Source of the DNA: Hylemonella gracilis ATCC 19624
GTDB lineage: Bacteria > Pseudomonadota > Gammaproteobacteria > Burkholderiales > Burkholderiaceae_C
NCBI RefSeq assembly: GCF_000211835.1
Contig: NZ_AEGR01000001.1
Location: 1-59,220, forward strand
DNA length: 59,220 nucleotides
Direction: 5' to 3'
This document shows, in pieces, positions 4,561 through 10,919 of the stretch. The notes below the pieces were generated by a model that did no database searches, was not told the DNA's origin, and saw nothing but the letters and a program-made list of their open reading frames with translations. Numbering within the stretch: position 1 is the stretch's first letter; each line of letters opens with the position of its first letter. A program made the position numbers and the translations under genes.

Positions 4561-4929
4561 ATGTCCATGAAGCGCTGGTTTGAAGAATACGCAAAGCACG
4601 CTGCGCTCAATTTCGGCCAGGCGCTGCAAGGCATTCGCTATTTCTACTCACATCCCGACGTGGACGATTTGGCCCCGAGAGGATCGTTCAAGCACTTTGC
4701 GCGGTCCCTCGTCATTCGAACCAAGCGGGTCGCGAATGATCTTTTCTTCGCGGCCATTCCCCCCCATTGGCACCACACCCCAGAAGAACTCACCGCCATT
4801 TGCGGAGTATCTTTCCCGCGCTGGTTTCAGTATGGCTATTGCGCTTGGCGTTTCACGGATTCCGGAGACCCCAAGACAAGTTTGCTGGACGTTGATCGGC
4901 GCTGGGACCCGCGATGCAAAGGCGGCTAG
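4561..4929 (+). CDS. Hypothetical protein, 122 residues
   Basis: Starting from the ATG at 4561, the frame encodes a basic, aromatic-rich protein (MSMKRWFEEYAKHAAL, then FKHFARSLVIRTKRVAND and HWHHTPEELTAICGVSFP). The ribosome site is poor (only GCAGGTG in the right area). I do not recognise a family. The frame stays open through the preceding VOC gene, so part of the openness is incidental, but the composition from 4561 onward looks like protein rather than a shadow frame. It ends convergently with the DUF6958 gene after about 200 non-coding bases. It could be a decayed remnant. Confidence 0.45.
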   Translation: MSMKRWFEEYAKHAALNFGQALQGIRYFYSHPDVDDLAPRGSFKHFARSLVIRTKRVANDLFFAAIPPHWHHTPEELTAICGVSFPRWFQYGYCAWRFTDSGDPKTSLLDVDRRWDPRCKGG

Positions 4930-5136
4930 TTCGACTCCAAGTGGTGCCGCTCGGCATGGCCTGGGCGGTTTTGCCCTGGGCGTTGCCTCTTCGCGAGGCG
5001 CTCTGAGGCCCCGATATCGGACGCAGACCCATGAACCCGAGCCATCAAACTGTGCGTTCGGCCTGGCCTGCCACGGGATTGCGATGGGCAACGCGAGGGC
5101 GGTCGGCTCAGCTCTATTAGCTCTATTGGCTCATCT

Positions 5137-5433
5137 TTATCGCCTCAAGCGCAGCGGCTTGGTGTTCTCCCGCTGGAGGAGTCCCTTGGCTTCCAGGTCC
5201 AGTTGCGTGGCTTTGAGCCACCACCCGGCCTTGGCCCCTGCAGGAAACAAGTCCTGTGGCAGCAGCGGGAGGATTGCGGACTTGACCTCGGCCACGGTCA
5301 GCCCCGGGGATGTCTTGGGTAGAACGGACATCAAGGCCTCTTTCATGGCCAGGTACTTGGCGCGGTCCACGCGCTCCACCCGGCCCGGTGTGTTGATGTT
5401 CTCGATCTCCACCTTGTCGGTGTCATGGCGCAT
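5137..5433 (-). CDS. DUF6958-family small protein
   Basis: The 98-residue protein begins MRHDTDKVEIENINTPGR and contains the family block AKYLAMKEALMSVLPKTSPG followed by LPQDLFPAGAKAGWWLKATQ, ending EAKGLLQRENTKPLRLRR. The family resembles a small winged-helix fold but has no proven role. I chose the ATG at 5433 because GGGGAGG stands just upstream and because it overlaps the stop of the upstream GFA-like gene by 11 bases, a typical translational-coupling arrangement. A longer frame to 5544 exists but has no such support. It should be transcribed with the GFA/DUF6151-like gene from the promoter at 6027-6053. Confidence 0.8.
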   Translation of the reverse strand: MRHDTDKVEIENINTPGRVERVDRAKYLAMKEALMSVLPKTSPGLTVAEVKSAILPLLPQDLFPAGAKAGWWLKATQLDLEAKGLLQRENTKPLRLRR

Positions 5434-5968
5434 CCAGGCCTCCCCGCACGAAATCAACCTTGGGCACGCGAAAACCCATGTCCACCCAGGCAAGAAAGAG
5501 CCGAAGGTAGAACGCCCAGGTGTGTGTGCCAGGGTTGGGCACATCCTTCGGTAGCACCACGCCTTCGGGCTTGCTCCGGGTCATCGTCCTGATTTCCAGC
5601 GGGGGCAAGGTGCCCGCTGGCCAGAGGCCGCCGTAGAGGCTGAGCCAATGGCCACCCCCGAATTCCATGAACATGGGCGTGTTGCAACAGCTCGCGACGA
5701 CGCGGCGGGTGGGCGAGCTTCTTGACAGTCTGTGCTCCCGCAAATGGCCCGATCCTCTCGCGCACCACACCCTGTCCTTGCGGTACAGCTCAAACCGGGT
5801 CGCGCCGTGGTGGTCCAGTACCGGTTTGGCGCCGGGCAGCGTTTGCAAAAAGGCGCCAGCGTGCTGGCAATCCGTGCAGAGGCATTCGGCGCTGATGATG
5901 GGCGTGCCCTCAAGCTGCAAGACGCATCGTCCGCAAGCGCAGGGCAGTGGGGTTATCTGAAAGTTCAT
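5423..5968 (-). CDS. GFA-like (DUF6151-type) zinc-cysteine protein
   Basis: The 181-residue protein has a GFA-type cysteine layout: Cys10, Cys12 and Cys15 (CACGRC), Cys29, Cys31 and Cys34 (CLCTDC) and a later SCCNTP pair. It differs from the GFA protein at 3.1-3.5 kb in having a long C-terminal extension (THTWAFYLRLFLAWVDMGF, then KVDFVRGGLDAP) and closely resembles DUF6151 proteins. The ATG at 5968 is preceded by GAGGA. It is the first gene of a two-gene minus-strand operon with DUF6958. A site fitting the ECF42 promoter consensus lies about 60 bases upstream. The biochemical role is unknown; zinc binding and thiol chemistry are inferred from the fold. Confidence 0.82.
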   Translation of the reverse strand: MNFQITPLPCACGRCVLQLEGTPIISAECLCTDCQHAGAFLQTLPGAKPVLDHHGATRFELYRKDRVWCARGSGHLREHRLSRSSPTRRVVASCCNTPMFMEFGGGHWLSLYGGLWPAGTLPPLEIRTMTRSKPEGVVLPKDVPNPGTHTWAFYLRLFLAWVDMGFRVPKVDFVRGGLDAP

Positions 5969-6026
5969 GGCTGGGGTTCCTCACGTGGGGTGGTCGCAGT
6001 TCTCTTAGACTGCTGTCCAGCACCAC

Positions 6027-6053
6027 GACGAACCGCATCCGGCAGATTCGACA
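6027..6053 (-). promoter_or_regulatory. Predicted ECF42-type sigma promoter of the GFA/DUF6958 operon
   Basis: On the minus strand TGTCGA (6053 to 6048) is followed after exactly 17 bases by CGTC (6030 to 6027). The start codon of the GFA/DUF6151-like gene lies about 60 bases further on. As I recall, the consensus reported for ECF42 sigma factors is TGTCGA at -35 and CG(A/T)C at -10. The same motif with the same spacing precedes the yciI-sigma operon at 8209-8235. A functional role is inferred. Confidence 0.55.
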
Positions 6054-6112
6054 CGGCGCAGCGGCCCTAGGGTTTTCCTTGGGTGACGGGTGTGCTGAAG
6101 TGACAAAAAACG

Positions 6113-6583
6113 ATGATCATTGATTTGATGACCACGGCATCCGTTATCGCCTCGGCGCTTGTCGGCGGGGTGTTCTTCGCCTTCTCCGTTTTCGTGATGC
6201 GCGCCCTGGCGTCCATGCCACCCGCGCAAGGCATCCTGGCGATGCAGCGCATCAACATCGCGGTCATCCATCCACTGTTTCTGGGCGTGTTCCTGGGAAC
6301 GGCACCGTTGCTGGCTGTCTCCACCTACTTGGCTCGGAGCAAGCCCCACGCTGACCCGTGGTTGCTGGCCGCGTTCCTCGTCTACGGGGTCGGTTCGGTG
6401 GTGGTGACCCTGGCGTTCAACGTGCCGCGCAACAACCGGCTCGCGGCCCTGGGCGCGGCGACATCCGAAGCGGAGGCTTACTGGCCGGTCTACCTGCGCG
6501 AGTGGCTGTTCTGGAACCATGTGCGTTGCATCGCTTCGATCACTGCTGCGGTGCTCGCCATGCGCGCGACCGAGATTGTCTGA
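6113..6583 (+). CDS. DUF1772 (anthrone-oxygenase-like) membrane protein
   Basis: The 156-residue protein has four predicted membrane helices: residues about 5-28, 50-70, 82-102 and 132-150. It shows the DUF1772 marks VFFAFSVFVMRAL, the central MQRINIAVIHPLF, and FNVPRNNRLAAL followed by the WPVYLREWLFWNHVR segment. The family includes fungal anthrone oxygenases, but bacterial members have no fixed function. The ATG at 6113 has only an A-rich stretch upstream. It is divergent from the GFA/DUF6151-like gene across a 144-base gap that carries the predicted ECF42 promoter on the other strand, and it is followed by the DUF3052 gene after 25 bases. Confidence 0.85.
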   Translation: MIIDLMTTASVIASALVGGVFFAFSVFVMRALASMPPAQGILAMQRINIAVIHPLFLGVFLGTAPLLAVSTYLARSKPHADPWLLAAFLVYGVGSVVVTLAFNVPRNNRLAALGAATSEAEAYWPVYLREWLFWNHVRCIASITAAVLAMRATEIV

Positions 6584-6608
6584 ACCCGCTGGAATCGCAG
6601 GAGGCGCC

Positions 6609-7031
6609 ATGGCCGTTGGTTATTCAGGAACACCCTTGCCCAAGAAGCTCGGCATCACCGAGGCCACGCGCCTGGCGGTGCTGCACGGCCCGGCTGACTA
6701 CGCCGCCATCGTGGGTGAGTTGCCTGCTGGCGCGCAGATCCAGAACCGGCTCGGTGCGAGCACCCACCTGGTCCACCTCTTCGTGACCGAGCGCGAGGTT
6801 CTGGCCTCGGAACTGGCGCGCTTGCGCAAGGCGTTGCACCCGGACGCGGCGGTCTGGGTGTCGTGGCCCAAGAAGTCCGCCAAGGTGCCCACCACCGTCA
6901 CCGAAGACACCATCCGCGAACTGGCCTTGCCGCTGGGCTGGGTCGATGTGAAGGTTTGCGCTGTCACGGAGGTCTGGTCGGGCCTGAAGTTGGTCGTGCG
7001 CAAGGAACTGCGGCCCAAGGGGCCGGCCTGA
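6609..7031 (+). CDS. DUF3052-family protein
   Basis: The 140-residue protein begins MAVGYSGTPLPKKLGITEATRLAV, the family signature, and contains the conserved WVSWPKKSAKVPTTVTEDTI segment near residues 80-100 and a C-terminal VCAVTEVWSGLKLVVRKEL block. The fold is expected to be a small SAM- or Rossmann-like alpha/beta domain, but no activity is known. AGGAGG stands directly upstream of the ATG at 6609 and decides the start over a longer open frame from 6519. It lies 25 bases after DUF1772 and 55 bases before the SLOG gene on the same strand. Confidence 0.85.
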   Translation: MAVGYSGTPLPKKLGITEATRLAVLHGPADYAAIVGELPAGAQIQNRLGASTHLVHLFVTEREVLASELARLRKALHPDAAVWVSWPKKSAKVPTTVTEDTIRELALPLGWVDVKVCAVTEVWSGLKLVVRKELRPKGPA

Positions 7032-7086
7032 TCGGGTGGTTCACTGGAACTGAAACTGAAACTGAAAAACGAGGAACGTCATCGCC

Positions 7087-7617
7087 ATGTCCCGTGCATC
7101 CGCATCTTTCCGTCAACCCCAGGTCTGTGTACTCGGCAGCGCCGAACCGGGTTCCACCGCCTACGAGTTGGCCGGCGAGGCCGGTGCGCTGCTGGCCCGG
7201 CACGGTATCACCTTGGTCAGCGGTTGCGGCAGCCCCGCGACCCGGGTCGCGGCGGAACGCGCCATTGCTGCGGGTGGTCTGGTACTCAGCATCGTGCCGC
7301 CCGATGAAATGCCGCCTGCGGATTGGCCTGCGACGGTGGTGGTGCCCTGCGGCATGGGCGATGCGCGCAACCTGCTGATGGCGCTGTCGGGCGACGCCTG
7401 CCTGGTCATCGGCGGGCGCGCGGGCACGATTTCGGAGGTCTGCCTGGCCTGGTTGCACAAGCGCCCGCTCTTGCCTTTGGTGGGGCATGGGGGCTGGTCC
7501 GATGCCTTGCCATCGAATCCTCCGGACGAACGCAAGAACTCGCCCATCCTGCCCTGGAGCGGCATGGCAGAGTTGGAGCGCCAACTTCGTCAACTGCAGA
7601 TCATTCGACCGACGTGA
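7087..7617 (+). CDS. SLOG-superfamily (TIGR00725/LOG-like) nucleotide-binding protein
   Basis: The 176-residue protein has the Rossmann-like SLOG fold. It opens QVCVLGSAEPGSTAYELAGEAG, followed by HGITLVSGCGSPATRVAAERA, and then the phosphate-binding VIGGRAGTISEVCLAW segment near residues 112-127, equivalent to the PGGxGTxxE loop of LOG phosphoribohydrolases (here GGRAGTISE). It therefore keeps the Gly-Thr and the catalytic-type Glu but replaces the first Pro-Gly-Gly. Proteins of this type bind nucleotides or related ligands; cytokinin-riboside hydrolase activity is possible but not assured. The ATG follows GAGGA. The C-terminus ends 82 bases before the SnoaL-like gene. Confidence 0.82.
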   Translation: MSRASASFRQPQVCVLGSAEPGSTAYELAGEAGALLARHGITLVSGCGSPATRVAAERAIAAGGLVLSIVPPDEMPPADWPATVVVPCGMGDARNLLMALSGDACLVIGGRAGTISEVCLAWLHKRPLLPLVGHGGWSDALPSNPPDERKNSPILPWSGMAELERQLRQLQIIRPT

Positions 7618-7699
7618 CAGATGACGAGCGGCGTCGTCAGGCTGTGAACAATCCCTGGATCGATCTCCTGCCCCCCTCACTGTGAAGGACGAATTGCCC

Positions 7700-8155
7700 A
7701 TGAACACGCAAGAGAACAAGGTTGTCGCTTTCAGATTCTTCGAGCGCTTCACGGCCAGTGATCTCGAAGGCGCCCTGGACACGATGGCCGATGACGCGAC
7801 ATGGTGGATACCTGGGAAGAAGGAGCGGTCGCCCTCTGCTGGCCTGTACCCCAAGGACAAGATTGGCCGCCTCTTTCATCGCATGGTCAATGCGCTGGAG
7901 AACGGTTTGAAGATGACGGTGGTGTTCTGCATCGCCGAAGGCGATCATGTCGCCCTTGAGGTCGTCTCCGAGGGCGACTTGAAGAATGGGCGCCAGTATC
8001 GGCAGGAGTACCACATGCTTCTGAAGTTCAGAGACGGGAAGATCGTTTCGGTCCGAGAGTACCTCGATACCCAGCACGCCAACGATGTCTGGGCCGCACC
8101 GCTCACCGAGCAGGAAATGGAAACGGCCCGCCTGGCGTCGCAGAAAGAAGCTTAG
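7700..8155 (+). CDS. SnoaL/NTF2-like protein
   Basis: The 151-residue protein has the cone-shaped NTF2-like fold pattern: an N-terminal helix (NKVVAFRFFERFTASDLEGAL), the DDATWWIPG segment, and a closing FRDGKIVSVREYLDTQHAND strand pair typical of ketosteroid-isomerase-like proteins. The substrate is unknown. I place the start at the ATG at 7700 (MNTQENK), with AAGGAC upstream; a GTG at 7682 would add six residues. SnoaL-like domains are common partners of ECF sigma factors, and this gene is immediately upstream of a yciI-sigma pair. A promoter lies between, however, so it is probably a separate transcript. Confidence 0.85.
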   Translation: MNTQENKVVAFRFFERFTASDLEGALDTMADDATWWIPGKKERSPSAGLYPKDKIGRLFHRMVNALENGLKMTVVFCIAEGDHVALEVVSEGDLKNGRQYRQEYHMLLKFRDGKIVSVREYLDTQHANDVWAAPLTEQEMETARLASQKEA

Positions 8156-8208
8156 CCCCTCCCATCCTTGTTCCCGAGGGAGGAGTGACTGGAAAATTTT
8201 CGTTCGCT

Positions 8209-8235
8209 TGTCGAAATCATGTCCGCTGCAACGAC
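8209..8235 (+). promoter_or_regulatory. Predicted ECF42-type sigma promoter of the yciI-sigma operon (autoregulation)
   Basis: TGTCGA at 8209-8214 is followed after 17 bases by CGAC at 8232-8235. The yciI start lies 55 bases downstream. This fits the ECF42 consensus as I recall it (TGTCGA at -35, CG(A/T)C at -10), and such sigma genes usually control their own yciI-linked operon. The same motif and spacing recur at 6027-6053. Confidence 0.6.
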
Positions 8236-8290
8236 ATGAAGATGTGTCGGGACCTTCCCTGCACACCCACCGATAGCGAAAGGACCGATC

Positions 8291-8644
8291 ATGCAATACA
8301 CCATTCTGATTCACGAAAGCGACGAGGGATTCGCGGCGCGCACCGATCCGCGACAGCAAGAGAACTACTGGGGAGGGACGATGCGTTACTTGAAGGCGCT
8401 CAAGGACGCGGGCGTCTTCGTCGGGGGCGCGGGTCTGCAGCCGCCCAGCATGGCGACGACCCTGCGCTTCGAGCAGGGCAAGCACCTTGTTCAGGACGGG
8501 CCTTATGCCGACACCAAGGAGCAATTGGGTGGCTTGTTCATCGTCAACGTGCCGGATCTGGATACTGCGCTCGAATGGGCGGCGCGCTTCCCGCAACGCC
8601 CGGGCCTGGTGATCGAGGTGCGTCCGAACTTGCCCAACGACTGA
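8291..8644 (+). CDS. YciI-family (DGPF domain) protein
   Basis: The 117-residue protein is a single YciI-like ferredoxin-fold domain: MQYTILIHESDEGF, a central MRYLKALKDAGVFVGGAGLQ helix, the hallmark DGPYADTKEQLGGLFIVNV (DGPF-like motif, residues about 71-89), and the terminal ALEWAARFP helix. In many bacteria such proteins are encoded next to ECF42 sigma factors and are thought to belong to their regulatory circuit. AAAGGA lies upstream of the ATG. Its TGA overlaps the ATG of the sigma gene by one base (TGATG), so the two are translationally coupled. Confidence 0.92.
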   Translation: MQYTILIHESDEGFAARTDPRQQENYWGGTMRYLKALKDAGVFVGGAGLQPPSMATTLRFEQGKHLVQDGPYADTKEQLGGLFIVNVPDLDTALEWAARFPQRPGLVIEVRPNLPND

Positions 8645-9903
8645 TGGGCCCTGATCACCCGGCCCATGCGGCCGTCGCGAGGGTCGCGCGGGAGTCGTGT
8701 CGGCGCTTGATCGCGCTGCTGGCGTCCCGCTCGGGCGGGATTGCGCAAGCCGAGGATGCGTTGGCCGATGCGTTTCGCTCAGCCCTGGAGACGTGGCCGA
8801 ATCAAGGGATTCCTCGGAATCCGGAGGCTTGGCTGCTCACCGCAGCCAGGCGCCGGGTGATCGACGCCCACCGGCACGATGCGGTGCGGGCGGAGGCGGT
8901 GACCACCTTGCTGTCCATTGCCGACGAAGCGATGGACGGCGTGGAGGAGGGGGCGGCTTTCCCCGACGAGCGACTCAAGCTCCTGTTCGTCTGCGCTCAT
9001 CCCGCCATCGATGTCGCGGCGCGAACGCCGTTGATGCTGCAAGTGGTATTGGGGCTCGATGCGGGCGACATCGCCTCGGCATTCTTGGTCAAACCGGCCA
9101 CCATGGCGCAACGCCTTGCCCGGGCCAAGGCCAAAATCCGTGACGCCAGGATTTCCTATGAGGTGCCAGACCACAAGGCGTTGCCGGAACGCCTGGACGC
9201 GGTCTTGCAAGCCATCTATGGAATCTATGGCCTCGGATGGGACGAACTGCTGGGCGCCGACTCACCGCGTCGTGGCCACGCCGCGGAAGCCGTGGAACTG
9301 GGGCGCTTGCTGCACTTGCAGATGCCCGAGCAGGCGGAAGTCAAAGGCCTGCTGGCCTTGATGCTCCATTGCGAGGCACGTCGTCCTGCCCGTCGCAATG
9401 CGTCGGGTGAGTTCGTGCCACTGGATGAGCAAGACACGTCGCTCTGGCTGCATCCCCTGATCGCCGAAGCCGATGAGTTGCTGGCGCAGGCCTCCTTGTT
9501 GAATACCTTGGGAAGATTTCAGCTGGAGGCGGCGATTCAGTCGGTGCACGCACGAAGATCCGCGGGGTACGCGACCGACTGGCAGTCCATCGCGCTGTTG
9601 TACGACGGGCTGGCCAGCAGGGCGCCGGCTTTGGGAACCTGGGTCGCGAGGGCCTCGGCATGGTCCAAGGTCCAGGGCCCTGATTTCGCCTTGCAACTTC
9701 TGGCCCAGCTGCCCACCGAGGCCGTGGAGGGCTATCAACCGTATTGGGTGCTCCTGAGCACCTTGATGCAAAGGCTAGGCCGGCTGAAAGAGGCCAGCAC
9801 CGCCTTGGAACGTGCGATCGGCTTGTGCGTCGATCCGGCCACGAGGCAGTATCTGCTTCAGCAAGCGATGTTTATATCGGTCAGCATGCGCGGCCATGCT
9901 TGA
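8644..9903 (+). CDS. ECF42-type RNA polymerase sigma factor with a long C-terminal extension
   Basis: The 419-residue protein starts with an ECF sigma core: region 2 (AEDALADAFRSALETWPNQG and RNPEAWLLTAARRRVIDAHR, about residues 39-79) and region 4 (GLDAGDIASAFLVKPATMAQ and RLARAKAKIR, about 138-168). The remaining 250 residues are the TPR-like DUF6596 extension with the typical LQAIYGIYGLGWDELLG, LLALMLHCEARRPAR and LNTLGRFQLEAAIQSVHA blocks. This architecture plus the upstream yciI gene marks the ECF42 group. There is no anti-sigma gene; regulation by the C-terminal domain is likely. The ATG at 8644 overlaps the yciI stop. A longer in-frame opening back to 8185 is incidental. Confidence 0.93.
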   Translation: MGPDHPAHAAVARVARESCRRLIALLASRSGGIAQAEDALADAFRSALETWPNQGIPRNPEAWLLTAARRRVIDAHRHDAVRAEAVTTLLSIADEAMDGVEEGAAFPDERLKLLFVCAHPAIDVAARTPLMLQVVLGLDAGDIASAFLVKPATMAQRLARAKAKIRDARISYEVPDHKALPERLDAVLQAIYGIYGLGWDELLGADSPRRGHAAEAVELGRLLHLQMPEQAEVKGLLALMLHCEARRPARRNASGEFVPLDEQDTSLWLHPLIAEADELLAQASLLNTLGRFQLEAAIQSVHARRSAGYATDWQSIALLYDGLASRAPALGTWVARASAWSKVQGPDFALQLLAQLPTEAVEGYQPYWVLLSTLMQRLGRLKEASTALERAIGLCVDPATRQYLLQQAMFISVSMRGHA

Positions 9904-10102
9904 TCGTTGGATGATGAGTCCAATAGGATATGTCTGTTAGTACTTTGAATAAAAGATTCAGGCACGTACGCGCTCAAGTGGTTTTTATCGAGTTTGTCCT
10001 ATCATTCCAAGGGGAGCGTTGCAGCAATCATATTGGTCGTGAATTCAAACGTTGACTTTGATTAAAGCTTACCCCCATCCATCAATATTCAACAGGGAAA
10101 AT

Positions 10103-10756
10103 ATGAACGCTATCTTTTCAATAGTATTCTCGCTTTCTGTCGCTGCTTTAGTTGGCGGCTGTGCCTCGGCATCAGGAGTTCATGAATTACTACCGTCTGC
10201 GAACTACATGAGTTCTTCTCAAGGAAATGGAAGCGTTGATGTCTTTCGGCAGGGTGAATCGCCGTCGCGACCTTATGTTCGAATTGCAGCCGTAGCAGCC
10301 CATGGAAACGCCTACGCGGATCAAGCTACTCTTGAAAGAGTATTGGTTCAAGAGGCGCAAAAGGTTGGTGCCGATTGCGTAACCATTACAGGAAAAGAGA
10401 TATCCAAAGATGAAGGCGTAGGCACCTATGGCGGCGGCATCATGATGTCTAGCCAAATCCAGCGCCCACATCTATATGGCATCGCATGTCGATACTCGAA
10501 AGTTCGCTTGGGAATTAGCTGGGATAAGGAAGGATTTATTACCTACGTCAGCTCTGGATCAGCTGCGGATAGAGCTGGACTTGTTGAGGGCCAGCGGCTG
10601 GCGGCAATCAACGGCGTGCCATTTTCGTATGGAGGTTACTTCATGGAAAAAGAAGTTGTCTCAAAATCGCCCGGAGATGTTGTTGTCCTTGAAGTGCTTT
10701 CAAGAAACTCGGAAAAAATCAGAAAAGAAGTGGTGCTTGAAGCATGGTCGCGATAA
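10103..10756 (+). CDS. Putative lipoprotein with a C-terminal PDZ-like domain
   Basis: The 217-residue protein has a signal peptide of about 19 residues ending in a lipobox (LVGGC, lipidated Cys20). A middle domain (RIAAVAAHGNAYADQATLER, then AQKVGADCVTI) resembles small outer-membrane stress lipoproteins. Residues about 130-217 read as a PDZ domain (GFITYVSSGSAADRAGLVEG and QRLAAINGVPF). The ATG at 10103 follows CAGGGA. The gene and its upstream region are visibly richer in A+T than all neighbours, with codons such as AGA, ATA and GAA, which suggests acquisition by transfer. It ends at a strong terminator shared with gltA. The exact family is not recognised. Confidence 0.75.
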   Translation: MNAIFSIVFSLSVAALVGGCASASGVHELLPSANYMSSSQGNGSVDVFRQGESPSRPYVRIAAVAAHGNAYADQATLERVLVQEAQKVGADCVTITGKEISKDEGVGTYGGGIMMSSQIQRPHLYGIACRYSKVRLGISWDKEGFITYVSSGSAADRAGLVEGQRLAAINGVPFSYGGYFMEKEVVSKSPGDVVVLEVLSRNSEKIRKEVVLEAWSR

Positions 10757-10840
10757 GTTGATCAGTTGAATCGCTCCCTCATTGAGCGGGAAAGTTTCAA
10801 ACTCATAGCGTTGCTCTTCTGAGCAAATCAACGCATATAA

Positions 10841-10869
10841 AAAAGCCCGCCGAAACTCGGCGGGCTTTT
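10841..10869. terminator. Bidirectional rho-independent terminator between the PDZ lipoprotein gene and gltA
   Basis: A perfect 12-base-pair stem including flanking A and T runs: AAAAGCCCGCCG, loop AAACT, CGGCGGGCTTTT. It lies between two convergent genes and works in either direction. Confidence 0.92.
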
Positions 10870-10919
10870 ACTTGGAAAACACAAGTAGCTGTGACTACTT
10901 GTATTCCCGATGTAACGGA

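Follow-up and report, generated by a model that had tools for sequence, protein, structure and literature searches.

We analysed a 59,220-nucleotide stretch of Hylemonella gracilis ATCC 19624 (contig NZ_AEGR01000001.1, positions 1 to 59,220; hereafter the window), in which two sites resembling promoters of ECF42-type sigma factors lie 2.2 kb apart. The first, on the minus strand at 6027..6053, precedes an overlapping gene pair encoding a DUF6151 and a DUF6958 protein. Its −35 box TGTCGA (6053-6048) is followed by a 17-base spacer and the −10 element CGTC (6030-6027, extended GGTTCGTC), 58 bases upstream of the DUF6151 ATG. The second, on the plus strand at 8209..8235 (TGTCGA 8209-8214, N17, CGAC 8232-8235), is located 55 bases upstream of the ATG of a YCII gene (yciI), which is followed by an ECF42 sigma gene. 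The −35 box and the spacing are identical at the two sites, and the −10 elements differ (GGTTCGTC at the DUF6151 site, GCAACGAC at the yciI site). The −10 consensus of ECF42 is given as CG(A/T)C, and both 6053-6027 and 8209-8235 conform to TGTCG(A/G), a 17-base spacer and CG(A/T)C. The sequences, strands, coordinates, spacing and start-codon distances of the original prediction were all confirmed. A scan of 4900-10100 for sigma-70 promoters found none, vs 1.1 expected.

The DUF6151 protein (5423..5968, minus strand; 181 aa) scored 27.6 bits against Pfam DUF6151 (cut-off 27) and 24.0 bits against GFA (PF04828), narrowly below the gathering cut-off of 24.3. A homologue from g240, a genus in the same class but in another family, was cut at 150 residues and scored inversely (GFA 25.6, DUF6151 22.5 bits). 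The cysteines of the CxCG, CxCxxC and CCN motifs are kept in the homologues that cover them (20-row alignment) and are putative zinc ligands. The structure prediction, from a two-row alignment, was unusable (predicted local distance difference test, pLDDT, 36). The DUF6958 protein (5137..5433, minus strand; 98 aa) matched PF22278 with 125.3 bits (cut-off 27) on the longer open reading frame (ORF) 5137-5544. Alignment of homologues indicates that it most likely starts at 5433 rather than at the first ATG of the ORF at 5544; the overlap with the DUF6151 stop is consequently 11 bases. Its model (pLDDT 88, predicted template modelling score 0.78; 4-row alignment) has a strand-strand-helix-helix-helix-strand-strand order and is winged-helix-like. 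Foldseek returned 493 matches up to E 10, all weak (best E 0.09, none under E 0.001), and winged-helix proteins were frequent among the 50 matches listed, as judged from their titles. DNA binding by DUF6958 would be a guess from this model. A role of DUF6958 as the regulator of the pair was rejected by argument, because the protein is present whichever regulator gene is nearby. Neither protein had a sequence relative in the PDB at E 0.1. DUF6958 is rare, scoring above cut-off in 3 of 100 relatives, 6 of 369 genomes of the class and 20 of 398 of the phylum, counts that each include the window’s own genome.

On the other strand, the YCII/DGPF-domain protein (8291..8644, plus; PF03795, 61.7 bits) is encoded directly upstream of the sigma gene, as expected of an ECF42 locus, and overlaps its start. 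The ECF42-type sigma factor (8644..9903, plus; 419 aa) comprises region 2 (PF04542, 31.4 bits, above the cut-off of 24) and a probable region 4, the latter with a PF08281 score just below cut-off (23.5 vs 25.7 bits, E 4.5e-5) and a full-region alignment with other ECF42s. The C-terminal extension agrees with the about 200 residues expected and contains DUF6596 (98.9 bits, residues 183-283 of 419); no tetratricopeptide repeat Pfam match was found in it at E 0.001. We also observed that the yciI promoter (8209-8236) is quasi-palindromic, TGTCG...CGACA, and that its opposite strand fits the strict consensus TGTCGR-N15-TTCGTC, discussed below, with two mismatches. The region 7590-10836 (SnoaL, YCII, ECF42 and a 234-residue ORF) has no counterpart at the locus of H. 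gracilis Niagara R, so the window ECF42 copy looks lineage-specific. The GC content of 9904-10919 is 46.3%, vs 63.9% for the window.

The window holds exactly two copies of TGTCGA-N17-CGWC, vs 0.29 expected in dinucleotide shuffles, which reached two copies in 1 of 100. The genome (3.6 Mb, 115 contigs) contains 27 TGTCGR-N17-CGWC sites vs 38 for the reversed control pattern, hence this loose pattern is not enriched and alone proves little. By codon score, eight of the 27 sites are non-coding. Five of the eight lie 20-100 bp ahead of a gene, namely an SRPBCC gene on contig C60, DUF6151, YCII, a contig C47 ORF at least 485 codons long, and one doubtful ORF. The comparison set of 30 sites with other spacings (those with loci out of 164 TGTCGA-N15-19-CGWC matches) included five non-coding sites, two of them with a gene at that distance. 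The scan for TGTCGA-N15-19-CGWC as such was dropped as too unspecific (164 sites vs 134 reversed). The site on C47 (2144-2170, L033) reads TGTCGG-N17-CGAC, is probably non-coding and lies 43 bases ahead of its ORF. The strict form TGTCGR-N15-TTCGTC is rare, with 0.01 copies expected in the window from shuffles and two in the whole genome, and it marks the DUF6151 site as one of the two.

Conservation of the motif upstream of orthologues, set as a test by the original prediction, held in part. The site is present at 8 of the 18 DUF6151-DUF6958 loci read, namely in the window, in H. gracilis Niagara R and at six loci in g240, and is missing from the other ten, to which we return below. Among the 41 g240 genomes sampled, DUF6958 was found in six, all with the site before DUF6151; two further genomes (L234, L279) have the site and DUF6151 with no DUF6958 match. 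Ten aligned promoters (the window and nine other DUF6151/DUF6958 loci), which were selected with the pattern itself, keep TGTCGA, N17 and CGTC with divergent spacers. In H. gracilis Niagara R (L063, same contig as G007), the promoter region matches that of the window at 76% across 66 bases and has DUF6958 behind it. Most of DUF6151, corresponding to window 5492-6016, is absent there, and a C-terminal DUF6151 tail remains (L063:5884-6364 vs window 5127-6081). Another genome, G774, has a lone DUF6958 gene, without DUF6151, behind TGTCGG-N17-CGTC (L106:1428-1454, 29 bases ahead of the ATG). This was the one strict motif among 16 loci with DUF6958 but no DUF6151 match within reach; five weaker DUF6958 loci (L118-L122) had no BLAST match and lay outside the motif scan. 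G774 encodes three ECF42s, one of which shares 65% identity with the C60 copy introduced below, and its lone DUF6958 gene is a possible ECF42 target. Judged by sequence, spacing, placement and conservation, the assignment of both window sites as ECF42-type promoters is supported, and the predicted link stands: the DUF6151-DUF6958 operon is likely an ECF42 target in two distant lineages.

In the window’s genus, TGTCGR-N15-TTCGTC was found 33 times in 17 of 26 genomes, vs 7 reversed controls. Behind these sites lie 13 YCII, eight SRPBCC/AHSA1, two PhnB/VOC, two GFA-type and one DUF1428 gene; the rest are two MFS-like genes (one by Pfam, one by eye), one gene with no Pfam match, and four sites with nothing convincing. 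The 28 scoreable sites included 25 non-coding ones and 22 with a gene 20-100 bp downstream. The GFA-type targets are DUF6151 in the window and a PF04828 protein in G008. The latter (C78:85859, L143/L155; 53.6 bits), with TGTCGA-N15-TTCGTC 41 bases before its start, is itself a predicted target. The strict form thereby appears to mark ECF42-type targets in two genera, this one and g240.

The genome encodes two ECF42s, one in the window and one on contig C60, which are 34% identical and differ strongly in the sequences of sigma regions 2 and 4. The C60 copy lies in an SRPBCC-YCII-VOC-ECF42 operon, the promoter of which has TTCGTC. Five genus genomes were examined for ECF42 (G000, the window’s own, and G003, G007, G008 and G012); each has a C60-type copy (73-93% identical), and the window type is present in G000 only. 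In the tree, the two types form separate groups, each with 100/100 support, and the g240 ECF42s fall beside C60 (100/100); the window ECF42 pairs with L181 (100/98) within a clade of 17 rows (100/99). All 17 rows, the window included, have one TGTC(G/C)(A/G)-N17-C(G/A)(A/T)C site upstream of the sigma gene, a pattern widened to CATC after an initial look at the sites. The −10 element is CATC in 11 rows (L183, L185-L194), CGAC in three, CGTC in three and TTCGTC in none, and a YCII-like ORF behind the site was confirmed by script in 14 rows (not in L176, L182 and L185). An unselected look at C60-type loci found TTCGTC in L072 and L160 and CTCGTC in L162, with no consensus site in the stretches read for L071, L163, L165 and L167-L169. 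TTCGTC promoters were seen at C60, G007 and G003; since most TTCGTC sites of the genus were found with the TTCGTC pattern, they are a selected sample. The two ECF42 clades seem to differ by −10 element (TTCGTC vs CGAC/CGTC/CATC).

From the sequence, placement and conservation of the site and from the sigma phylogeny, we infer promoter activity, the acting sigma factor and the role of the products as follows. The site at 6053-6027 is probably a functional ECF42-class promoter of DUF6151-DUF6958, read most likely by the C60 ECF42, with the window ECF42 mainly driving its own operon. RNA polymerase carrying ECF42 would recognise TGTCGA-N17-CGTC and transcribe the overlapping gene pair, yielding a GFA-like cysteine protein and a small winged-helix-like protein. 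The acting sigma factor would most likely be the copy from the SRPBCC-YCII-VOC-ECF42 operon, a copy common to the genus genomes examined. The window ECF42, as a lineage-specific arrival, would drive mainly yciI-ecf42 from the CGAC site at 8209, and cross-talk through the common TGTCGA box may occur. By their family and regulon company, the DUF6151 and DUF6958 products would join the small enzymes targeted by ECF42 in a stress or detoxification response.

A model that overlaps with this one has both ECF42 copies reading the DUF6151 promoter, C60 mainly and the newcomer via the TGTCGA box, which would merge two inputs. The −35 box and N17 are shared and a CGTC −10 is found in both clades, but the strong divergence of regions 2 and 4 and the differing −10 preferences make such dual reading possible rather than likely. 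The original prediction had proposed a local sigma regulon, with the neighbouring window ECF42 acting on DUF6151-DUF6958 as well as on its own operon. This would explain two sites at so short a distance with the same −35 box and spacing, and CGTC does occur in 3 of the 17 window-clade rows. However, the TTCGTC of the DUF6151 site is absent from that clade, the window-type sigma is missing from the four other genus genomes, and H. gracilis Niagara R keeps the DUF6958 promoter with a C60-type ECF42 only. Moreover, three g240 genomes with the same promoter (G373, G746, G833) each have a single ECF42, sharing 56% identity with C60 and 34% with the window copy, and the C60 copy has the matching promoter type. 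We therefore regard the local regulon as improbable; the word “local” is probably wrong, and the DUF6151 site probably answers to the unlinked C60-type ECF42.

Several observations weigh against control of the operon by an ECF42. The ten DUF6151-DUF6958 loci without the site are those of G091, G645 and Phyllobacterium G467 and seven plasmid loci (read out of eight matches; six annotated, the seventh record unannotated). G091 has no ECF42, G645 has three, and Phyllobacterium G467 has two, one of which is 59% identical to the C60 copy. One plasmid locus (L212) has a near match only, ending in CGCC, 78 bases upstream. Longer stretches around three g240 ECF42 genes contained no matching site. In the 41 g240 genomes, 80 strict sites vs 49 reversed controls is a modest excess, so the weight is carried by the downstream gene families: DUF1428 (22), DUF4287 (14), YCII (11), GST (11) and DUF6151 (8) account for 66 of the 80, in gene classes partly assigned by similarity, with Pfam run on representatives only. 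Finally, according to the excerpted text of PMC6180224, expression of the YCII-rpoE10 operon of Sinorhizobium meliloti is not raised by its ECF42, RpoE10, despite the motif, which overlaps the transcript start there; the motif alone is thus no proof of promoter use.

On the plasmids, the pair lies in different company. The pairs of Shinella, Roseateles sp. XES5, Mameliella, Roseinatronobacter and Sulfitobacter show the same gene overlap as the window but, unlike it, have TetR/AcrR genes adjacent or near and no ECF42-type site. In the annotated plasmids (L210-L213, L215, L216), TetR/AcrR is the direct neighbour in five of six, with two genes between in L215. Chance matches in the window, with the operon otherwise controlled, for example by a repressor, would suit this TetR company, the ten loci without a site and the lack of genome-wide enrichment of the loose pattern, but are very improbable given the 0.01 expectation for the strict motif and its presence, with divergent spacers, in all six g240 carriers and in H. 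gracilis Niagara R. Tentatively, and at somewhat less than even confidence, we view DUF6151-DUF6958 as a portable effector module of two genes that has passed between TetR and ECF42 control, with ECF42 in Hylemonella and g240 and TetR company on alphaproteobacterial plasmids. ECF42 circuits appear to have recruited GFA-type cysteine proteins at least twice (DUF6151 in the window and in g240, PF04828 in G008), which would point to an output in thiol-adduct or reactive-carbonyl detoxification.

The window sigma factor, with its DUF6596 extension and overlapping YCII gene, resembles the ECF42 loci described in the portions of PMC8999054 and PMC6180224 consulted. The ECF42s of Streptomyces venezuelae and Xanthomonas campestris and ECF-10 of Pseudomonas putida likewise have a long C-terminal extension and a YCII protein nearby (excerpts of PMC8999054 and PMC8103513). 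For S. meliloti RpoE10, Table 1 of PMC6180224 gives the promoters as TGTCGG-N17-CGTC. We located one of these mapped promoters on pSymB. The product of its target gene SMb20475 is a PF06983 (PhnB-like) protein and shares 73% identity across 108 residues with the G012 product behind TGTCGA-N15-TTCGTC. The two systems further share a YCII gene ahead of the sigma gene, operons of small conserved proteins and the PhnB/VOC family. In contrast, the four targets named in the excerpted text of PMC6180224 are two glyoxylase-like proteins, one hydrophobic-ligand-binding protein and one without predicted function, none of them GFA, DUF6151 or DUF6958. The literature searched contained no mention of DUF6151 or DUF6958, and no paper in it linked “glutathione-dependent formaldehyde-activating” to “ecf sigma factor”, or “duf1428” to “sigma factor”. 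DUF6151/DUF6958 as ECF42 targets, a TetR/ECF42 switch and a CATC −10 were likewise not met in this search, which covered literature outside the primary ECF42 papers and does not establish novelty in print.

ECF42 regulons of small enzymes are already known, and DUF6151 and DUF6958 would be new predicted members with an apparent switch of regulator. The locus illustrates that nearness to a sigma gene can point to the wrong paralogue. The strict motif leads to a compact predicted regulon of YCII, SRPBCC/AHSA1, PhnB and GFA-type proteins in the window’s genus and of DUF1428, DUF4287, YCII, GST and DUF6151 in g240. ECF42 is a widespread sigma group, and the conserved promoter places two families of uncharacterised proteins, DUF6151 and DUF6958, in its predicted output.

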